A stretch of DNA of 36,123 nucleotides, taken from a virus. Below, in pieces: positions 5,041 to 27,641 of this stretch (positions are counted from its first letter, which is position 1; every line of letters starts with the position of its first letter). A program made the position numbers and the translations under genes. Below the pieces are notes generated by a model. It had not been told where the DNA came from and made no database searches. It worked only from the letters and a program-made list of their open reading frames with translations. Where the stretch lies: the IMG/VR virus record IMGVR_UViG_3300020172_001959, positions 1-36,123 of that record, one strand, 5' to 3'.

Positions 5041-5048
5041 TATTTATC
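5041..5048 (-). promoter_or_regulatory. Late-type promoter for the 4459-5019 gene
   Basis: The minus strand reads GATAAATA, one mismatch from the T4 late box, 21 nt before the ATG. A CGGAG ribosome binding site follows. Confidence 0.5.
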
Positions 5049-5763
5049 AGTTATTCTTGTAATATAATTCCACACGGGTCCACCATCTGTCTTCCCATAA
5101 ATTAAAGTTTTCTGGCTTTAGAATGAATTCTTGGTATTGTGGAATACCCCATACACCAGGTGATATTTCTGGTGGTTTTACACACATTAAAATTACACCT
5201 TTACGAATATTGGTTCCATGAACTTTATTATGTGCTAGTGCATATGCAGTTAATTGTAGATAATAATCTTCAATCCATTCTTCTTTTTTAGGTTTATTAG
5301 ATTGCTTATAATCAAGAATGGCTTCGTCATCTCGATGAATACCCAGCGCGTCTGCAGTTCCAGCATAAAGTTCTGGATAATATAATCCAACTTCTGACCC
5401 CCAAATTTCATTGACGTTGATTAATCCATTATTGATTATAGTATCCGCCATTAAATTGCTTTGTTTGCTATATGGATTTGTGCCGGGTGGAGTTAAAAAC
5501 CCATTAGCAACAAAATCCTCCAGGAATTTATGCATTCGTGTTCCACGTCCTGCAGCTTCCGTAGTTATTTCTTGTGCTTTTGATTCACCGACTGATTTCC
5601 TCCATTTCATGATGGATTCTATCTTTTCTTTTGATTTTGTTTTATCAAGAATGGTTGTTACTGATGGAACTTTCGAACCATCAGGGCAAAGGTATAATCG
5701 TTTGCCTTGTTCTTCATTTCTATTAATTGGTGTATAATTGTATCGTTCTGTTAGTAAAGTCAT
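5047..5763 (-). CDS. PD-(D/E)XK nuclease, MGME1/RecB-like
   Basis: A 238-residue nuclease. Residues 33-55 (VPSVTTILDKTKSKEKI) and AAGRGTRMHKFLEDF (about 70-84) match the RGTxxHxxxE region of the phage and MGME1-like exonuclease family. The catalytic set is E124, D138 (AGTADAL), D151-x-K153 (ILDYK) and Q160 (YYLQLTAY). Such proteins act on DNA ends or single strands in replication and recombination. The start is odd: the ATG sits inside a long inverted repeat (5750-5788) and only 5 nt after the -10 box of a good sigma70-type promoter, which implies a leaderless mRNA. No Shine-Dalgarno sequence is visible. The next in-frame methionine is far inside the domain, so the annotated start is kept. 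Confidence 0.85.
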   Translation of the reverse strand: MTLLTERYNYTPINRNEEQGKRLYLCPDGSKVPSVTTILDKTKSKEKIESIMKWRKSVGESKAQEITTEAAGRGTRMHKFLEDFVANGFLTPPGTNPYSKQSNLMADTIINNGLINVNEIWGSEVGLYYPELYAGTADALGIHRDDEAILDYKQSNKPKKEEWIEDYYLQLTAYALAHNKVHGTNIRKGVILMCVKPPEISPGVWGIPQYQEFILKPENFNLWEDRWWTRVELYYKNN

Positions 5764-5768
5764 ACGAT

Positions 5769-5797
5769 ATTATATGACATTTACTAACAGAAGTCAA
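5769..5797 (-). promoter_or_regulatory. Sigma70-type promoter for the PD-(D/E)XK nuclease
   Basis: TTGACT, a 17-nt spacer and TATAAT on the minus strand. The -10 ends 5 nt before the nuclease ATG, so transcription would start at or inside the start codon. It lies just after the stop of the frameshift extension ORF. Confidence 0.65.
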
Positions 5798-5799
5798 GA

Positions 5800-6162
5800 T
5801 TATTTTGATTTCAATGCATGATTAGCCATTTGTGATACTTGTGAATGATCTTGATCAATGACATCTTGGTTATTAACCATATCAGGTTGTTGATTATCAG
5901 GTACTAATCTAATACCATGTTTATCAAAACTATCACGATTACCGTTTACTATATTATGTAATGGACCAGATGGATCTTCTGAATCATATCTTACTCCAAA
6001 AGAATATTCATCAATACTAGGTTCCCCGAAGTATGATAATGCAGCACTGATTGTATCCCATGTTATTGGTGATGATTGTTTTTCTGGATGAAAGTTTAGA
6101 TCCGCTTGTAATAATTTTAATACTTTAACAAGCGGATCAGATACTTCAACGGCTTCTATTAC
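5800..6162 (-). CDS. 120-residue extension reached by -1 frameshift from the 6159-7100 gene
   Basis: This open frame has no usable start: back to the previous in-frame TGA there is no ATG, GTG or TTG before a methionine at residue 95 of the extension. It begins in the -1 frame at the A9G run ending the preceding gene. Slipping back one base on A-AAA-AAG, the E. coli dnaX-type heptamer, bypasses the UAA and continues VIEAVEVSDPLVKVL. The product looks like real protein: an amphipathic start, then PITWDTISAALSYFG and EYSFGVRYDSEDPSGPLHN, with codon use like its neighbours. It ends at TAA (5800-5802). I do not recognise the family. The predicted long form is about 433 residues, made alongside the 313-residue short form. 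Confidence 0.7.
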   Translation of the reverse strand, partial: VIEAVEVSDPLVKVLKLLQADLNFHPEKQSSPITWDTISAALSYFGEPSIDEYSFGVRYDSEDPSGPLHNIVNGNRDSFDKHGIRLVPDNQQPDMVNNQDVIDQDHSQVSQMANHALKSK

Positions 6163-6171
6163 TTTTTTTTT
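6099..6171 (-). promoter_or_regulatory. Candidate programmed -1 frameshift signal: A-AAA-AAG plus hairpin
   Basis: The minus strand carries nine A residues then G (6171-6162), read TCA-AAA-AAA-AAG-TAA in the upstream gene. The last seven bases are the A-AAA-AAG slippery heptamer, and the stop follows immediately. 23 nt downstream a perfect 11-bp stem (GATCCGCTTGT with ACAAGCGGATC, 18-nt loop) lies at 6138-6099. AGGA lies about 16 nt upstream of the heptamer and could act as an internal stimulator. The spacing to the stem is longer than the usual 5-9 nt. Confidence 0.65.
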
Positions 6172-7100
6172 GAGCTTAACAGCATTCCTAATCTGCGACT
6201 GTAATCAATGCTTTCGCGTTTCATTCTACCTGCTTCTGATGCTGGTAATTCAGCACCTAATTCAGCACCTCCTTCACCACCAATGTCACCGCCTAATTCT
6301 GGAGTACCGGTTTCACCGCCCATTGGAGCACCGCCCATTGGAGCACCCATTGTTTCGCCTTGCTCGCCAGATACGATTGCTAGTCCATTTGATAAACCTT
6401 CACGACCAGCAACCAATGCTGTATAAATGCCTTCTAATGCCTGTGAAACAACCTGGTTAAATTGACCTGAAACTTCACTGCCTTGTTCTGCTCTTATAGA
6501 GTCCAATAATTCTAACAATTGGTCAGCCTTCATAGCAGCGGTATCTTCGATCCAGTTAGTGATTTTTCCAACCATATCTTTAGTTGCTAAGATATTCTCT
6601 GCTTTTTGTTCTTCGCCTTCTAATAGCATCCAACTCGCCTGTGATTCAGATAAGTCATATCTTAATGTTAACTCAGCTGCTAATTCTTGTCTATCAGATT
6701 CGCCTAATTGAATTCTTTTAATTGCATTTTTAATCCAACTTTCTGGTACTGACATTTTTTCAGCACGGTGACGAATAGCAGAGATCATTGCTTCATTGCT
6801 TATCTGTCTATATGGCTGTTCAGCATTTTCTGCTAATTCAGCGGCCTCTTCTCTTTCGAAGATTGCTTGGTTAACAACATCTAGTAATGCACGAGTTTTT
6901 TGATATTTTGAGTTTTCTAAAATATTGTCGTAGCTTTCATTCATTTCCATCTGACTCAATTCTGTACGTAATTTATTACGTACATCTTCTAATTGTACAT
7001 CATTGAATTGTTCTAATTTTAATTTGTAACCGAAAGTCTTAGCCATACTTTCATTTAGTTTTTTACTTGTTACTTTTTGTGATAAATCTTTAATTTGCAT
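6159..7100 (-). CDS. Internal head or scaffold-type protein, short form of a frameshifted pair
   Basis: A 313-residue, acidic, mostly helical protein. It begins MQIKDLSQKV, resembling the short N-terminal tag of T4 internal head proteins. Residues 20-230 are charged helices (KLRTELSQMEM, EREEAAELAENAEQ, AAELTLRYDLSESQ). Residues about 250-290 are low-complexity Gly/Ala/Pro/Met with GAPMGGAPMGG and GGEGGAELGAEL, then a basic tail (AGRMKRESIDYSRRLGMLLSSKKK). Helix plus Gly-rich tail fits a prohead core or virion protein. Similar proteins occur in T4-like cyanophages, though that is from memory. It ends on the AAAAAAAAAG slippery run, so a fraction of ribosomes probably continue into the 120-residue extension. 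An exact TATAAATA late box lies 30 nt upstream. Confidence 0.65.
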   Translation of the reverse strand: MQIKDLSQKVTSKKLNESMAKTFGYKLKLEQFNDVQLEDVRNKLRTELSQMEMNESYDNILENSKYQKTRALLDVVNQAIFEREEAAELAENAEQPYRQISNEAMISAIRHRAEKMSVPESWIKNAIKRIQLGESDRQELAAELTLRYDLSESQASWMLLEGEEQKAENILATKDMVGKITNWIEDTAAMKADQLLELLDSIRAEQGSEVSGQFNQVVSQALEGIYTALVAGREGLSNGLAIVSGEQGETMGAPMGGAPMGGETGTPELGGDIGGEGGAELGAELPASEAGRMKRESIDYSRRLGMLLSSKKK

Positions 7101-7130
7101 GTTAGTTCCTTATAACATTTCTCTATGTTG

Positions 7131-7138
7131 TATTTATA
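7131..7138 (-). promoter_or_regulatory. T4-type late promoter (exact TATAAATA)
   Basis: The minus strand reads TATAAATA 30 nt before the ATG of the 6159-7100 gene and overlaps the last codons of the upstream gene. A short leader with AAGGAACT follows. Confidence 0.7.
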
Positions 7139-7577
7139 TAAAAGTATGTTTAAACAATCTAGAAATAATTTTTTGGTAGTGATCTGATTGGTATGTACTT
7201 TCTTCCAGCCTTGTTAATAATATATGATATTTTTCAGATGATATATCGATTGTATTTTTAAATATCAAGGTATCACTATAATTAGACCAATACCGATTAT
7301 CTAGTTCTTTTATTTCATGACATTTAGCAAATTGTCTATGATTATAAAACTTAGCTGCCATTAATGCACAACTTTTCAAATAATATTGATTGATCAAGTC
7401 CTTATTTAAAACATTAAAAACACCCCAATCACCATTTGGTAGTTTTTTAACTAAAAAATCATTGTATCCAAGAGCACCATTTGGTAAAATTTTTATTGGC
7501 AATTTAGTCTGAAGTTCTTGATCAAAATAATCTGCTAATTCTTTAATTGCTGTTTTTGTTTTCATTTTCATTTGCAA
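7134..7577 (-). CDS. Hypothetical protein in the structural gene run
   Basis: A 147-residue protein with no domain I can name. Residues about 1-20 (MQMKMKTKTAIKELADYFDQEL) are a helix. Residues 28-65 form a likely beta-hairpin region (IKILPNGALGYNDF, KLPNGDWGVFNV). The rest is helical with aromatic residues. Three in-frame methionines (codons 1, 3 and 5) could start it. It overlaps the upstream gene by about 35 bases. Its position between small virion genes suggests a virion or assembly role, but this is inference. Confidence 0.6.
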   Translation of the reverse strand: MQMKMKTKTAIKELADYFDQELQTKLPIKILPNGALGYNDFLVKKLPNGDWGVFNVLNKDLINQYYLKSCALMAAKFYNHRQFAKCHEIKELDNRYWSNYSDTLIFKNTIDISSEKYHILLTRLEESTYQSDHYQKIISRLFKHTFI

Positions 7578-15690: not shown

Positions 15691-18600
15691 TTATATCCAG
15701 GTGCCAGCTACGGTATTTGCACCAATTGCACCTAATGGTGTTAATCGTATCCAACTTTGCGGATTTACGGTGACGGCAGTACCGTTGGTTGTAAATCCAA
15801 TATTAGGTATAATTGTCCCACCTGTAGCACCTATATCTATCATTCCGGTGATGCGATGACTGTATTCAGTGCCTTGAACATTGGCACTACTGCAAATGTT
15901 GAACAACGTAGTAGTAAAGTTTGATGTTATCATTTCGTAAACTAACACTGATGTATTATTAGCAGAGTTAGTGCTATCAGCATAGATGCTTATTCTGGTA
16001 GGAGTTGCTCCACCGCTGAACGTAAATAAACTCTGCTTTCCTGAAGGCCCGTTAGCGGTAAACACGAGTTCAAACTCATATCTAGTATTTGCAGTGACTG
16101 TGGCACCAACGCCGAAAATACTATACATAGTGTTAGCTGTGGTATTTCCTATAGTACGAGAAGAATTTAATGCGTAGTATAAAGTACCATTTCCATAACC
16201 TGTATAAGTGTTAGCACTTATTACCCCACCGCTTGCTGTTATAGTTGTACCATCAACTTTAGCAATCCCAAATGTACTAGATGATGCTTTATCTATAGTC
16301 CCGCCTAATGTAATAGTTCCAGTTGTTGTTATAGTGCCGCCTGTTAATGTGATACCACTTACGTTCCCAGACGTTGCTATACTAGTTACTGTTCCAGTAT
16401 TATTTGTTTTACTATTAAATGTGTTCCAATCAGTAGAACTCAGATACCCATTAGAAGTACTGCTTGCCTGTGATATACTAACAGTTGGAGTTGTTCCTGA
16501 TGTAACATTAATAGGGGCGGTTCCACTAACACTTGTAATTTTGTTATTAAAAGTATTCCAATCGGTAGAACTTAAATAACCATTAGTAGTTCCATTTGAT
16601 TGACTAATACTGATAGTCGGGGTAGTTCCACCAGTAGAACTAATTGGTGATGAACCACTTACGCCAGTGATATAAGTTCCAGCTACTTGTGCACCGACTG
16701 TGTGATAGTCTACTGTTATTGCAGAACTGCCATCAAACGTTGAATTAGCACTTGCACCTCCTGCTGTAGCAAATGTTACACTGTGTCTAACATTATTTGA
16801 TGAACCACTGATACTACCAACAATTTGATTAGCAAATGTTGCTGTTCCAGTTTCATCAATATCAACTACATCAGCAGCAATACCATTGACTACAAAATGT
16901 ATATGGTCGCCACCAATAACTAAATCACTTGATATTGAATTTAAATATACTGCATTTGGTAATGTTAAACTGTTGCCGTCACTAGTGAATGAACTTGAGT
17001 TCATTCCAAATTCACCATAGAAGGTAGATGCAGTTCCGTAGTTGTTACTTACAATATAATTGGTGCTAGAATTCGAACCACTACTAGTGTTTTGTAATAT
17101 AATTTGATTGTAACTATTAGCTGAACTGCTAAAGTCAGCCATTATACCTGTGTCGGAATAACTTAAAACACCGTAATTAAATGCACCGTGATTAGATAAT
17201 ATACTTACATTTTGTGTGGCAGTAAAATTCCCAGCATCTAAGCCACCGGTATTATCTCTTAACGCGATAGTATTAGCTGTACTGGCTGATGTAGCATCAG
17301 ACGTAACAGTTACAACACCATTTAATGTACTAGTTGATATATGATTTATACCAGTAACACTTATTACTCCTGTACTTGATATAGTTACATTATTAGTACC
17401 ACTGACAACGATACCAGAACCAGCAGATATACTAGTGACACCATTATTGTTAAGTGTAATGCTACCACCTAATGATACAACTCCGCCGCCACTCATTCCG
17501 GTACCTGCTATAACTGTTATACTACTGTAAGCTAATTTAGAGTTAGTAATACTTCCTATGTCAAGTGTGTTAGTAATATCAGAACTTTGAACATGTACTA
17601 CGCCAGTATAAGCATCGATCCCATCAAATTGTATTGATGAAACCCCTGAAACTGGAGGTATGTATTCCCATTCGGTGCCGTTATATATAATAAAACCACC
17701 TTGATCATATGATTTACTACCGCTTCCTATATCTCTAGTACCAGAAGAACTAATTGAATATTCCCAACCTGCTTGTGCTGTTACCCCACCTGCTGTAGTT
17801 TGTGTTATAACTGGTGTGTTATTAGTTGCATTCCATGTACCTTTATAAACAATTGATTGTGGAATTGGTGCCCAGCTCAGGGTTCCAGTTGTAGTATTTC
17901 CATTGATATCAGTTCCACCTGCAACCCCATCAGTTCTTAAATAGTAACCAATATATCCAGATTGGCTTGGAATAATTGTAGGTGCTGTAATTTGTCTTGT
18001 GCTATCTCTAAAAGTAATACCGCCAGTAGCATTACCTACAAAACTTAACCCAATTGAAGTAATATCAGCAGTAATCGGTTGAATAGTCACCGAATCATTC
18101 GGAGTAGTTTGGAAACGAACTCTCGTTCCTGCTTGTGTATCTGTAAAGTTTTGTGCTGCTTGGATATTAATACGTCCAATAGTGCTGATGTAACCAGTGG
18201 TCCCCCAACCTTGTGTACTAATTCTTAAAAGTGTATCGTTATTAACTGTGGCGGATGGATTTAGAGCAGTTCCATTTGCCTGTCTCGCAGCAATAACTGA
18301 ATATGCACCAGAACCAAAGCTATCCATATTAACACGAGTAGCAACCCCGTCCTTCCCAGCCATCGTTAATAATGTATCTGGAAAGTTTCGCTCCCTAACA
18401 TACCCAGCTGTATTGCCTGTAATAGTTAATGCACTTTGAGTAGTTGTTATAGAACTAGGTGTATTAATTGTTGTTAACCCTACGCGATCCACCTTGAATG
18501 TAATTTGACCAGCTGGACTGTTAACAGCAATTGGTCTATTGAATAGAACACGTCCGGTGGCAGTTGTAATACCAATTTCAATATCTCGTGTTGGATCTGT

Positions 18601-19761
18601 AATTCTAATTTTATTATCACGTAACGTAAATTCACCTACAATAAGACCAGCACCACCCGCAATGTATAAATTGCCATCTCTAGCGCCGATTGCTTGGTCA
18701 TTACCTAATGTTTCGTCTTGTAAGTAAATAGTTCCTGTACCGAACCATATTTCTTTGAATCTATTATTTGGAGAGCCTAAATTCCAGACACCATTAGTAA
18801 ATGGAATAATATCGCTATGTACAACAATTTTACCACCCGGACCAGAATTTAATGTAATATCAGTATTATCGATAGTGGTTATACTTAATCCGGCGTTTGT
18901 TGTATCACGAGCAACGGTAGTAGCTACTGATGTATGACCAGGTTGTCCATTTGTTAGATCAGCGTATGGTCTTGCGGATTGTCCTGAAGGAAAGTTTCTA
19001 TCAGTAATAATAAAATACTTACCAGTATCATCAGTACCTTGATGAATAATAGTACTACCAACAGGAATAGCAGCACCGCCTATAATATCCCCGTTTTGTA
19101 ATATGGGATTTGGAATAGTAGTTAACTGATATACAGTATAAGGAACCCCAGTTATACCGTTGGTTAATCCGTATATTGGTGGAACCAATTCTGCTACATC
19201 TCCATTATCTGTAATAGCAGCTATATAGACATTAGAAATATTGGCTACAATACTACCACTACCTTTAATAATACTACCAACCATTTCATCAGGATGTAAT
19301 AAATCAAGTACACGCATACCATAATTAGCAAATAATCCAGAACCTTTTGGACTTATTACAATATCAGCATTATTAATACTACCGAATATAGATTGAATTG
19401 CGGTTGATGGGGTAGGATTAGTATCTATATATAAGTCACCCAAGTCATTATAATTTGCAAATAAATTATTAACCCAAGTTTCAGTTGCGATCCCAGTGAA
19501 ATCAACACTAATTTTACCATTTACATCTATATTAATATTATTACCGATTTCAACACCACCTAAACTAGATGATGTAGCAATTGGTAAAGTATAACTTCCA
19601 CTACTGCCACCAGTAATAATTATTCCACCCGGTGTAGAACCATCACCGATTCTTAGCGTATTGGTATTACTATCATACCAAATTCTATTAGTATCACCAA
19701 TGCGAGTATTGCCATCATCATAGCCACGATAGCTTGAAAATAAATCTTGAGTAAATGCCAC
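15691..19761 (-). CDS. Large tail fibre protein
   Basis: The largest protein here at 1356 residues. Residues 1-60 are an attachment module (NTLRIGDGSTPGG). Residues about 55-75 repeat a segment shared with the 171-residue fibre. A long middle has fibre repeats, including FRDSTRQITAPTIIPSQSGYIGYYL and VSGVSSIQFDG. Near residues 1090-1200 two copies of NGYLSSTDWNTFN with SVSGTAPINVTSGTTPT-like spacers form tandem stalk repeats. The last 190 residues (from YTGYGNGTLYYALNSSRTIG) are a distinct terminal domain, probably receptor-binding, ending NTVAGTWI. It is Ser/Thr/Asn/Gly-rich, as expected for a long trimeric fibre, with the fibre chaperone gene further along the same cassette. Confidence 0.88.
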   Translation of the reverse strand: MAFTQDLFSSYRGYDDGNTRIGDTNRIWYDSNTNTLRIGDGSTPGGIIITGGSSGSYTLPIATSSSLGGVEIGNNINIDVNGKISVDFTGIATETWVNNLFANYNDLGDLYIDTNPTPSTAIQSIFGSINNADIVISPKGSGLFANYGMRVLDLLHPDEMVGSIIKGSGSIVANISNVYIAAITDNGDVAELVPPIYGLTNGITGVPYTVYQLTTIPNPILQNGDIIGGAAIPVGSTIIHQGTDDTGKYFIITDRNFPSGQSARPYADLTNGQPGHTSVATTVARDTTNAGLSITTIDNTDITLNSGPGGKIVVHSDIIPFTNGVWNLGSPNNRFKEIWFGTGTIYLQDETLGNDQAIGARDGNLYIAGGAGLIVGEFTLRDNKIRITDPTRDIEIGITTATGRVLFNRPIAVNSPAGQITFKVDRVGLTTINTPSSITTTQSALTITGNTAGYVRERNFPDTLLTMAGKDGVATRVNMDSFGSGAYSVIAARQANGTALNPSATVNNDTLLRISTQGWGTTGYISTIGRINIQAAQNFTDTQAGTRVRFQTTPNDSVTIQPITADITSIGLSFVGNATGGITFRDSTRQITAPTIIPSQSGYIGYYLRTDGVAGGTDINGNTTTGTLSWAPIPQSIVYKGTWNATNNTPVITQTTAGGVTAQAGWEYSISSSGTRDIGSGSKSYDQGGFIIYNGTEWEYIPPVSGVSSIQFDGIDAYTGVVHVQSSDITNTLDIGSITNSKLAYSSITVIAGTGMSGGGVVSLGGSITLNNNGVTSISAGSGIVVSGTNNVTISSTGVISVTGINHISTSTLNGVVTVTSDATSASTANTIALRDNTGGLDAGNFTATQNVSILSNHGAFNYGVLSYSDTGIMADFSSSANSYNQIILQNTSSGSNSSTNYIVSNNYGTASTFYGEFGMNSSSFTSDGNSLTLPNAVYLNSISSDLVIGGDHIHFVVNGIAADVVDIDETGTATFANQIVGSISGSSNNVRHSVTFATAGGASANSTFDGSSAITVDYHTVGAQVAGTYITGVSGSSPISSTGGTTPTISISQSNGTTNGYLSSTDWNTFNNKITSVSGTAPINVTSGTTPTVSISQASSTSNGYLSSTDWNTFNSKTNNTGTVTSIATSGNVSGITLTGGTITTTGTITLGGTIDKASSSTFGIAKVDGTTITASGGVISANTYTGYGNGTLYYALNSSRTIGNTTANTMYSIFGVGATVTANTRYEFELVFTANGPSGKQSLFTFSGGATPTRISIYADSTNSANNTSVLVYEMITSNFTTTLFNICSSANVQGTEYSHRITGMIDIGATGGTIIPNIGFTTNGTAVTVNPQSWIRLTPLGAIGANTVAGTWI

Positions 19762-25921: not shown

Positions 25922-26560
25922 CTAGTCATTGTTATTATCAAAATCAAATAATGGTGTATCCACTGGCTTTGATTTTTTAGGTTTTGATTCTTTAGGTTTA
26001 GGTTTCTCTTTAGGTTCAGAGTTCTCTTTAGATTTGGCTTTCTCTTCAGGTTCAGGAACAGGTTCTGGATTTATTAGCTGCTCGAAGAATTTATAGTTGT
26101 AAGCAATACCATCCGCACATACAATATTGGTTATACTGCCGTTTACTTCAAACACTGCAGTCACCGCTATATGTTTCCAATCTGCGGGGATATCATCATC
26201 TCTGAGTATTTTTATATCTTCTATTGGGATTAGATATAACCGACTAATACATTCAAGACAATTATCTACCATGATGTCAACACCAAAAATTGTTGATAAT
26301 GCAACATCATGTGTAATTCCATTTTGCATTTTAAGAATCAGTGCAGATACCAAGAACTGACCATCTCCGCACGTTGGATCTAAAAATGTCTTAGATCCAT
26401 TTGAAAATATTTCTTGTGGAAATTTACCTAGTATTTCTTCAACCAATGGTGAAGGTGTAAAGATTTCACCAGTTGACTTGGTTCTATCATTATCTCTATC
26501 CACTCCGGACATATGTTCACGTGAATGGTATTCTTCTAATAATTTATTGAGGATCGTCAT
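25922..26560 (-). CDS. N6-adenine methyltransferase-like protein lacking the catalytic motif
   Basis: A 212-residue protein. It has the approach motif TGEIFTPSPLV (30-40) and SAM-binding motif I FLDPTCGDGQFL (59-70) of N6-adenine methyltransferases of type I/Eco57I style, then IFGVDIMVDNCLE (motif II). The chain leaves the family around residue 160 and has no NPPY/F catalytic motif. The last 50 residues are a Lys/Glu/Pro/Ser-rich low-complexity tail. So it can probably bind SAM but not methylate alone. It overlaps the active methyltransferase gene by 17 nt and probably works with it. Confidence 0.75.
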   Translation of the reverse strand: MTILNKLLEEYHSREHMSGVDRDNDRTKSTGEIFTPSPLVEEILGKFPQEIFSNGSKTFLDPTCGDGQFLVSALILKMQNGITHDVALSTIFGVDIMVDNCLECISRLYLIPIEDIKILRDDDIPADWKHIAVTAVFEVNGSITNIVCADGIAYNYKFFEQLINPEPVPEPEEKAKSKENSEPKEKPKPKESKPKKSKPVDTPLFDFDNNND

Positions 26561-27641
26561 ACGAAATTAACCTTACTGCTTTGATATTAATGAACCCAGA
26601 CCATCTGCAATGTGTTTTCATTATATCAATACATTCAGTCAGTCGTTTAATAATCTGATTTGCTTCATCCATAGTATTAGGGTATATATACAAGTATAGC
26701 CCATAGTCTTTTGTTGAACCAGTTGTTGGCTTTTCATCACCATATAAAATTTCAAATGAATCAGCGGTTAACACACGGGAAACCGGCATACTTACTCGAA
26801 ATACTGATCGATTGCTTTGATCGATTGTAAATAGGCTATCTAAATTCTTAGTAGATGATAGATGTTTTTTAACTGTTTCTATATCACTTTTAGGTAAAAA
26901 ACCCAGACTGGCAACAGAACCATCGGCGAATATCAACCCATTGGTTGATGATTTATCAACAATTGCATAACCGAATGTAGAACCAACACCTGGGAAATGC
27001 TGTTTAATATTGGTAACATCTGCATAGGTTGTATAATCATTAAAAATATCCCATAATCTATTCTTTTTATTGATAGTGTATATACCAACTAAATCACGAC
27101 TAGGACTAGTCCAAGTTGTAGGCGTGATCAACCCAACAACTCCATCATCTTTTGATAAGTCCTTGATTGCAACCGACCAAAATTTAGACCATAAATTGCT
27201 TGCTTTATCTTTTCTTTTACCATCCTTGGTTGTTTCCTGAAATGGTGGATTACCCGCGATTGCGTCAAATTTCATAATTATATCATCCTTGATATGTTGA
27301 AGTCTTTTTCTAAACTCAATGCTATAATTTTGTAAAGAGCTAACGTTCTCAACTGAAAACATCGCTATAAAATCAGTCTCGGTCAAGACTTCATATGAAC
27401 CGACTAACTTGTATTTCTTTATAGCATTATTCATTGCTATTGATGATTTAAAGTAACCGAATGTCGTAGCATGAATCTCATCATCTGATAATCCTGCTTC
27501 TTTTTTCTGTTGTTCAACCATACTAACAAATTGCCCAGTTCCTGCAACTGGGTCTAAAAATGTTCCACGAATGTGCTTTTCATTAAAACCCTTTAATATT
27601 TCCGTAACAAGTGCTTCAAATTGTGTTTTATTGCGTACCAT
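26544..27641 (-). CDS. N6-adenine DNA methyltransferase (Eco57I-like)
   Basis: A 365-residue methyltransferase. SAM-binding motif I is FLDPVAGTGQFV (28-39) and the catalytic motif IV is NPPF (131-134, in IAGNPPFQE), typical of adenine-N6 enzymes. GVVGLITPTTWTSPSR follows (motif V region), then a C-terminal part (from about 200) that may be the DNA-recognition domain, with GVGSTFGYAIVDK. It lies between the helicase-nuclease gene and the second methyltransferase-like gene, so the three look like one modification or restriction locus. It is probably transcribed from the early promoter at 30121. Confidence 0.85.
   Translation of the reverse strand: MVRNKTQFEALVTEILKGFNEKHIRGTFLDPVAGTGQFVSMVEQQKKEAGLSDDEIHATTFGYFKSSIAMNNAIKKYKLVGSYEVLTETDFIAMFSVENVSSLQNYSIEFRKRLQHIKDDIIMKFDAIAGNPPFQETTKDGKRKDKASNLWSKFWSVAIKDLSKDDGVVGLITPTTWTSPSRDLVGIYTINKKNRLWDIFNDYTTYADVTNIKQHFPGVGSTFGYAIVDKSSTNGLIFADGSVASLGFLPKSDIETVKKHLSSTKNLDSLFTIDQSNRSVFRVSMPVSRVLTADSFEILYGDEKPTTGSTKDYGLYLYIYPNTMDEANQIIKRLTECIDIMKTHCRWSGFINIKAVRLISYDDPQ

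Follow-up and report, generated by a model that had tools for sequence, protein, structure and literature searches.

Transcriptional slippage is known from dnaX of Thermus and from some IS elements. The dnaX gene is recoded by the ribosome on A-AAA-AAG in E. coli and by the polymerase on A9 in Thermus, and in the split dnaX of Chlorobi the longer product comes from a shift and a stop codon follows the run (PMC3711429, PMC5009743). The heptamers A-AAA-AAG, A-AAA-AAA and A-AAA-AAC are all proven slip sites in bacteria (PMC4066793). Sites of −1 shifting with a stop codon directly 3' are known as well, and there is evidence that slippage can occur while that codon occupies the A site (PMC4373837). 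The threshold for slippage of bacterial RNA polymerase is usually nine nucleotides (PMC1088944; PMC5009743), its occurrence in Thermus has been linked to the possession of two tRNA-Lys (PMC5009743), and orthologues that shift in two directions are held to point to transcriptional realignment (PMC3711429). Among phages, T7/T3 gene 10 (10A/10B), the head protein of Lactobacillus phage A2 and the structural proteins of Listeria phage PSA have a minor, C-terminally extended form that is made by a shift near the end of the virion gene, and the lambda-type tail assembly chaperones (G/GT) join a first protein to a frameshifted extension with group-wide conservation (PMC5009743).

A gene with a similar design is present in a large freshwater bacterial virus. 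The window that we analysed is a 36-kb IMG/VR virus fragment (36,123 nucleotides), and its recoding features all lie on the minus strand. We think it rather likely that programmed −1 recoding lets this one gene yield a putative virion protein with two alternative C termini, a ribosomal shift being the most likely route. The initial annotation described a 313-residue gene ending AAA-AAA-AAG-TAA, a −1 frame that lacks a start and runs for 120 codons and, downstream, a perfect 11-bp stem, and each of these elements is present. The short-form ORF (6159-7100, minus strand; 313 codons) ends ...AGC TCA AAA AAA AAG TAA, which gives S-K-K-K as the end of the protein. The slip site AAAAAAAAAG (A9G; 6162-6171, minus strand) is read as xxA AAA AAA AAG in the zero frame and contains two overlapping in-frame heptamers, A-AAA-AAA and A-AAA-AAG; the zero-frame TAA (6159-6161, minus strand) is directly 3' of it. 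The −1 frame is open from 5800 to 6204 (minus strand) and reads KKK-VIEAVEVSDPLVK... The extension proper (5800-6162, minus strand) begins with the GTA codon at 6160-6162, ends with the stop codon at 5800-5802 and adds 120 codons beyond the last Lys codon, for 433 residues in all. ATG, GTG and TTG are absent from this frame from the previous stop through codon 20, which rules out an independent start for the extension in the window. An Rfam search of positions 5700 to 7200 gave no relevant match. The A9G sequence occurs once in the window, where 0.55 occurrences are expected by chance, so the run by itself means little and it is conservation that lifts it above the chance level.

Relatives of the short form were collected by scans of IMG/VR down to about 41% identity (homologues 41-96% identical), and removal of identical junctions left a set of 168 distinct ones. 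The end [T/C/A]CA-AAAAAAAA-[G/A/C]-stop, which we call canonical, is found in 137 of the 168, whose −1 frames are about 105-127 codons long. The split frame of the window is conserved in related phages. These canonical junctions have a run of A9 (122) or A10 (15), with the stop directly at the run, and that stop is TAA in 134 of the 137. In about 20 further junctions the A9 run is kept and the stop is shifted by a few codons. The last base of the slip site varies among relatives (G, A or C). The codon preceding the lysines ends in A in all 76 nonredundant relatives, even though TCA accounts for only 31% of Ser codons. Outside the junction, runs of A9 or longer are avoided: related loci with a total of 802 kb have one on the coding strand, compared with about 43 expected.

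The −1 product is homologous throughout the aligned sets of relatives, and the extension outside the hairpin is under strong purifying selection (pooled pN/pS 0.10, 19 close pairs). The initial annotation had named frames joined without a slippery run as evidence against recoding, and no such junction was found among the 168. Together, the canonical junctions, the further junctions with A9, the low pN/pS of the extension and the lack of joined frames make it nearly certain that this family uses programmed recoding at the A9 run to yield a short and a long form. The selection on these elements argues that the slip site is used, and the run appears to be retained to give some copies of the protein an additional 120-residue domain. 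Conservation of the site, stop, extension frame and hairpin and purifying selection on the extension are direct observations, whereas production of the long form, the ribosomal and transcriptional shares in it, the ratio of the two forms and the role of the extra domain are inferred.

Downstream of the stop codon, the arms GATCCGCTTGT/ACAAGCGGATC (6128-6138 with 6099-6109, minus strand) form a hairpin of 11 bp with an 18-nt loop (6099-6138). The stem of the window starts 23 nt past the run, and the local fold is more stable than expected (z = −4.4 compared with dinucleotide shuffles and −4.8 compared with synonymous-codon shuffles). For 49 nonredundant relatives, the first 60 nt past the run have a z of −3.3 relative to synonymous shuffles that keep the same protein and codon usage, and values elsewhere in the gene are near 0. 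In a larger canonical set, z is below −2 in 81 of 115 relatives. A hairpin of −8 kcal/mol or better is present in 69 of 76, and it mostly starts 9-16 nt past the run. The pairing in one register of an ungapped 48-sequence alignment is maintained in 69% of cells, compared with 31-50% when the partners are slid. The covariation score of this alignment was reached by 0 of 500 shuffles, although kinship of the sequences inflates the score. Sequence and register of the hairpin vary by subclade (for example GACCCCUUAGU/ACUAAGGGCUC, GGUGCGGAU/AUCCGCAUC, GGGCCUG/CAGGUCC and CUAUUGGUGGC/GCCGCCGAUAG). Its strength also follows the last base of the slip site, with C strongest and A weakest (Kruskal-Wallis p = 0.015-0.028 for small groups uncorrected for kinship). 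In the clade of the window, selection on the hairpin 3' of the stop goes further than the encoded protein requires (mean z about −3). One marine clade lacks a selected hairpin (mean z +0.2, with 1 of 23 at −2).

Several groups of relatives depart from the canonical junction. The marine clade, about 20 mostly related sequences, keeps A9, which is phase-shifted in L272 and L305, and has its stop one to a few codons further on. Within this group, three sequences (L286, L318 and L300) combine A9 with another A-AAA-AAG of only six or seven A's that directly precedes the moved stop. The run is GGA-A8 in L296 and L303, and A8G in L310. The direction of the shift is −1 in all relatives except one small lineage of four contigs (L326, L330, L331 and L333, the L141/L185 lineage), which has A10 or A11, keeps the hairpin and has the extension in the +1 frame. 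The zero frame of this lineage reads TSKKKSNRSH followed by a stop. In these contigs, and also in L141 and L185, a −1 ribosomal shift would yield the short form. It cannot reach an extension in the +1 frame, so the long form requires another event, such as the loss of one A in transcription or a +1 or −2 shift.

In three other relatives (L251, L293 and L297) the run is lost and the extension is a separate gene started by ATG. This start overlaps the stop as ATGA in L251 and lies 12 nt past the stop in L293 and L297. The separate genes are clearly homologous to the extension (E = 1e-27 to 5e-38 in a four-sequence test). An additional sequence, L261, has A6G plus an ATG in the hairpin loop, and the L026-L030 group has TAATG. 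The separate-gene relatives fall among the run-bearing ones in the tree, whose rooting is unreliable: L251 lies within a run-bearing clade (support 0.998), and L293 is apart from the L261/L297 pair. Just past the zero-frame stop of L293, L297 and L261, a small hairpin (GGATAC-AAAATGAAG-GTATCC is one example) has the start codon in its loop or close to it and may control translation of the separate or potential extension gene.

We consider a −1 shift of the ribosome to be probably the main route in the clade of the window. The main product would be the 313-residue form that ends KKK at the TAA. As the stop enters or occupies the A site, the Lys-tRNA or tRNAs on A9 could slip back by one base while the hairpin just downstream slows the ribosome. 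Reading would then continue K-K-K-V-I-E, and the minor product would be a 433-residue form with an extra small domain. The usual spacing puts the hairpin about 6-13 nt past the stop, a distance that would be suitable for a ribosome paused with the stop in its A site. Three features favor ribosomal −1 frameshifting: the hairpin, the added A-AAA-AAG at the moved stop and the compensation between hairpin strength and the last base of the slip site. Because it lies 3' of the run, the hairpin cannot act on an RNA polymerase that is still at the run. The second heptamer (A6G/A7G) is too short for polymerase slippage and, like the A8G of L310, hints at an event at the level of the ribosome. The bacterial precedents for all three heptamers (PMC4066793) and for sites with a stop directly 3' (PMC4373837) speak for the same route.

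Other features fit a ribosomal shift less well. Nine A's are kept where a heptamer would do, and the 23-nt spacing in the window is long for a stimulator. The only anti-SD signal, 9-15 nt before the run, is weak, and there is no clear internal Shine-Dalgarno that could serve as a 5' stimulator. The marine clade with A9 and a moved stop has no selected hairpin, and the +1 lineage places the extension out of reach. Genes for tRNA-Lys(CUU) and tRNA-Lys(UUU) are adjacent in the tRNA arrays of four sister contigs (L231:11000-11163, L202, L203 and L204), and a phage tRNA-Lys(CUU) beside tRNA-Lys(UUU) should lower slipping on AAG. The proposal of the initial annotation, a programmed −1 frameshift at a dnaX-type heptamer, stands for the recoding, the short and long forms and the selected stem. 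The heptamer alone is insufficient: it accounts neither for the retention of nine A's nor for AAC or AAA in place of AAG in some relatives, nor for the one lineage with the extension in the other direction. A tRNA array of the 259-kb sister contig G003, a jumbo phage, includes a tRNA with a CUA anticodon (L231:1194-1268), which ARAGORN calls as tRNA-Pyl and which is possibly a UAG suppressor.

The strongest alternative is that RNA polymerase slips on A9. Some mRNAs would then have ten A's, their normal translation would give the 433-residue fusion, and the hairpin would serve some other purpose, for instance protection of the mRNA behind the stop. Nearly all relatives have at least nine A's, a count that includes the wobble A of Ser, Pro or Thr, and the scarcity of such runs elsewhere fits the nine-nucleotide threshold (PMC1088944; PMC5009743). 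With a polymerase as the agent, the last base could also vary among G, A and C, as it does. It would tolerate the phase-shifted A9, the GGA-A8 and the A10/A11 lineage that shifts in the +1 direction, and it would account for a clade that has A9 and no hairpin. Moreover, these phages encode two tRNA-Lys, as is the case where Thermus uses polymerase slippage. However, polymerase slippage has no use for a stop exactly at the run. It also leaves unexplained a strongly selected and covarying hairpin 3' of the run whose strength tracks the last slip-site base, the second short heptamer at the moved stop and the A8 of L310. We therefore judge it rather unlikely as the whole explanation. The strict run length, the lineage with reversed direction and the hairpin-less clade nonetheless favor a contribution from the polymerase. 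Its slippage on the strict nine-A run may well be an added source of the long form beside the ribosomal shift, and possibly the main source in clades with A9 and no hairpin.

Polymerase and ribosome might also slip together on the same A9 run. Both sets of features are present, and no single mechanism explains the run length as well as the hairpin, but this combination is less economical and we think it unlikely. A broader model, which we put forward tentatively, is that one A9 tract works at the two levels, with the stop placed inside the slip signal and the strength of the hairpin adjusted to how slippery the last base is. Lineages might then switch between fusion by slippage and a separate gene, and the hairpin could be a stimulator or, with an ATG in its loop, a gate for translation.

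Two further alternatives carry little weight. The extension could be a separate gene that is translated by reinitiation past the stop rather than as a fusion. This is the arrangement in L251, L293 and L297, where the run is gone and the extension starts at an ATG, and it is also suggested by TAATG in the L026-L030 group and by a small gene with its own ATG at the same place in phages SCTP-2, Phosso and Atu_ph07. However, 40 of 76 nonredundant relatives, among them the window, lack any ATG, GTG or TTG in the extension frame between the preceding stop and codon 20, and a start with an SD-like sequence is present in only 4 of the 76. The run is lost where a start codon appears, which indicates that the start stands in for the run. 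Translation as a separate gene is thus very improbable as a general account, and an independent start holds for those three relatives. Homopolymers are prone to sequencing error, but an error or the decay of a formerly single gene is ruled out by the recurrence of the junction in 137 distinct sequences from many metagenomes, by the pN/pS of 0.10 and by the absence of any relative joined in frame through A10G (0 of 168).

The protein itself is putatively a virion protein of T4-superfamily jumbo phages. Its sole family match is a weak one to phrog_14154, "virion structural protein" (E = 7e-9, residues 157-248 only; 14 of 14 members match). This link runs through gp044 of Atu_ph07, which its record names as a virion structural protein, and the Atu_ph07 paper reports that virions of this phage were analysed by mass spectrometry. 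The suggestion of the initial annotation that this is a head or scaffold protein was not borne out, as the family match is the only clue and the T4-type head module of sister contigs is over 200 kb away. Related contigs of 259-372 kb have T4-type gp23 and gp21 genes. The T4-type head module of the sister contigs consists of a gp21-type protease, a 364-residue helical protein in the scaffold position and a gp23-type capsid protein. In one of them (G001), the 364-residue gene is between the gp21 and gp23 types at about 86-87 kb, and the homologue of the short form is at about 301 kb. The scaffold slot is thus filled by another gene about 215 kb away, and on location the short form is rejected as the gp22-type head scaffold.

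AlphaFold predicts that the short form is all-helical, with long helices at 163-244 (a helical hairpin), a disordered Gly/Pro-rich linker at about 251-295 and a conserved C-terminal helix at 297-309. The extension is predicted to be a small mixed folded domain (its residues 13-92, pLDDT about 88). Fold searches of PDB and BFVD with both parts gave no confident relative. The best PDB match to the extension has Z = 3.8 (rmsd 3.7, 73 aligned), and several weak matches are to DNA-binding domains of winged-helix-like fold. For residues 163-247 of the short form, helical-hairpin matches reach Z of about 10 (rmsd 3.0, 81 aligned), which is common for long helices. In BFVD the best match to the extension is an unnamed 117-residue phage protein (E = 0.016). 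The short form matches unnamed phage proteins there with E down to 6e-9, and Atu_ph07 and RaK2 at E of about 0.03. Searches of genome contigs and solved structures found no relative, nor did tblastn of the window's own proteins against cultured phages. With the proteins of the relatives as queries, tblastn against cultured phages reached no more than the core domain, in Phosso, in Atu_ph07 and weakly in SCTP-2; a further match in a Vibrio phage was insignificant. An IMG/VR scan that was queried with the Phosso homologue gave no match.

The gene directly downstream of the extension (5047-5763, minus strand) encodes a PD-(D/E)XK-type exonuclease by family match (phrog_298). Sister contig L063 and Salicola phage SCTP-2 also have this gene on the downstream side. 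Elsewhere in the window, the largest gene is a 1356-residue ORF (15691-19761, minus strand) without a PHROG match. Adjacent ORFs of 365 and 212 residues with a 17-nt overlap (25922-27641, minus strand) both match DNA methyltransferase families (Eco57I / N6_Mtase) and are perhaps a split or two-part methylase.

This recoding trick is known in other phages, and literature searches of an open-access library found no report of it for this gene family. A large and deeply sampled family that is widespread in aquatic T4-superfamily jumbo phages thereby joins a short list of phage genes with conserved recoding. Ordinary gene callers probably overlook the extensions of these proteins, about 110 residues long, because most of them have no start codon. 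The natural variants (A9G, A9A, A9C, A10/A11, A8, a moved stop, presence or absence of the hairpin, and the replacement of the run by a start codon) make the choice between ribosome and polymerase testable with small reporters.

The nearest described homologues, Atu_ph07 gp044, Phosso 458 and SCTP-2 gp8 (phrog_14154), share the core helical domain. Their gene order is similar, with a small gene just downstream and, in SCTP-2 and Atu_ph07, an exonuclease nearby. They differ at the gene end, which has no slippery run, and the small downstream gene has its own ATG. This small gene encodes 122-132 residues, and its first residues, MR-[IL]-x-[DE]-[IL], resemble those of the separate gene in L297. 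Comparison of the sequences did not establish its homology to the extension, for which the resemblance is only suggestive. It is reasonable to suppose that the two proteins are able to act as independent chains, and that in most lineages a limited quantity of the fused form is produced instead. The lambda-type chaperones share the plan of a first protein with a frameshifted extension, but neither sequence nor fold gave a significant match to G/GT, the extension compares with chaperone and tape-measure families at chance level, and three sister contigs have a T4_baseplate (PF12322) gene elsewhere. T7/T3 gene 10, A2 and PSA differ from the present gene in protein family, slip sequence and stimulators: here the stop immediately follows A9, the product is a putative virion protein rather than an established capsid protein, and the extension is not a recognised Ig-like domain. 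The slip sequences are those of dnaX, and the longer product of a shift at a run followed by a stop recalls its split form. What sets this family apart from dnaX is that it is a phage gene, that it has a covarying 3' hairpin and that A9 is kept with or without this hairpin within one family.
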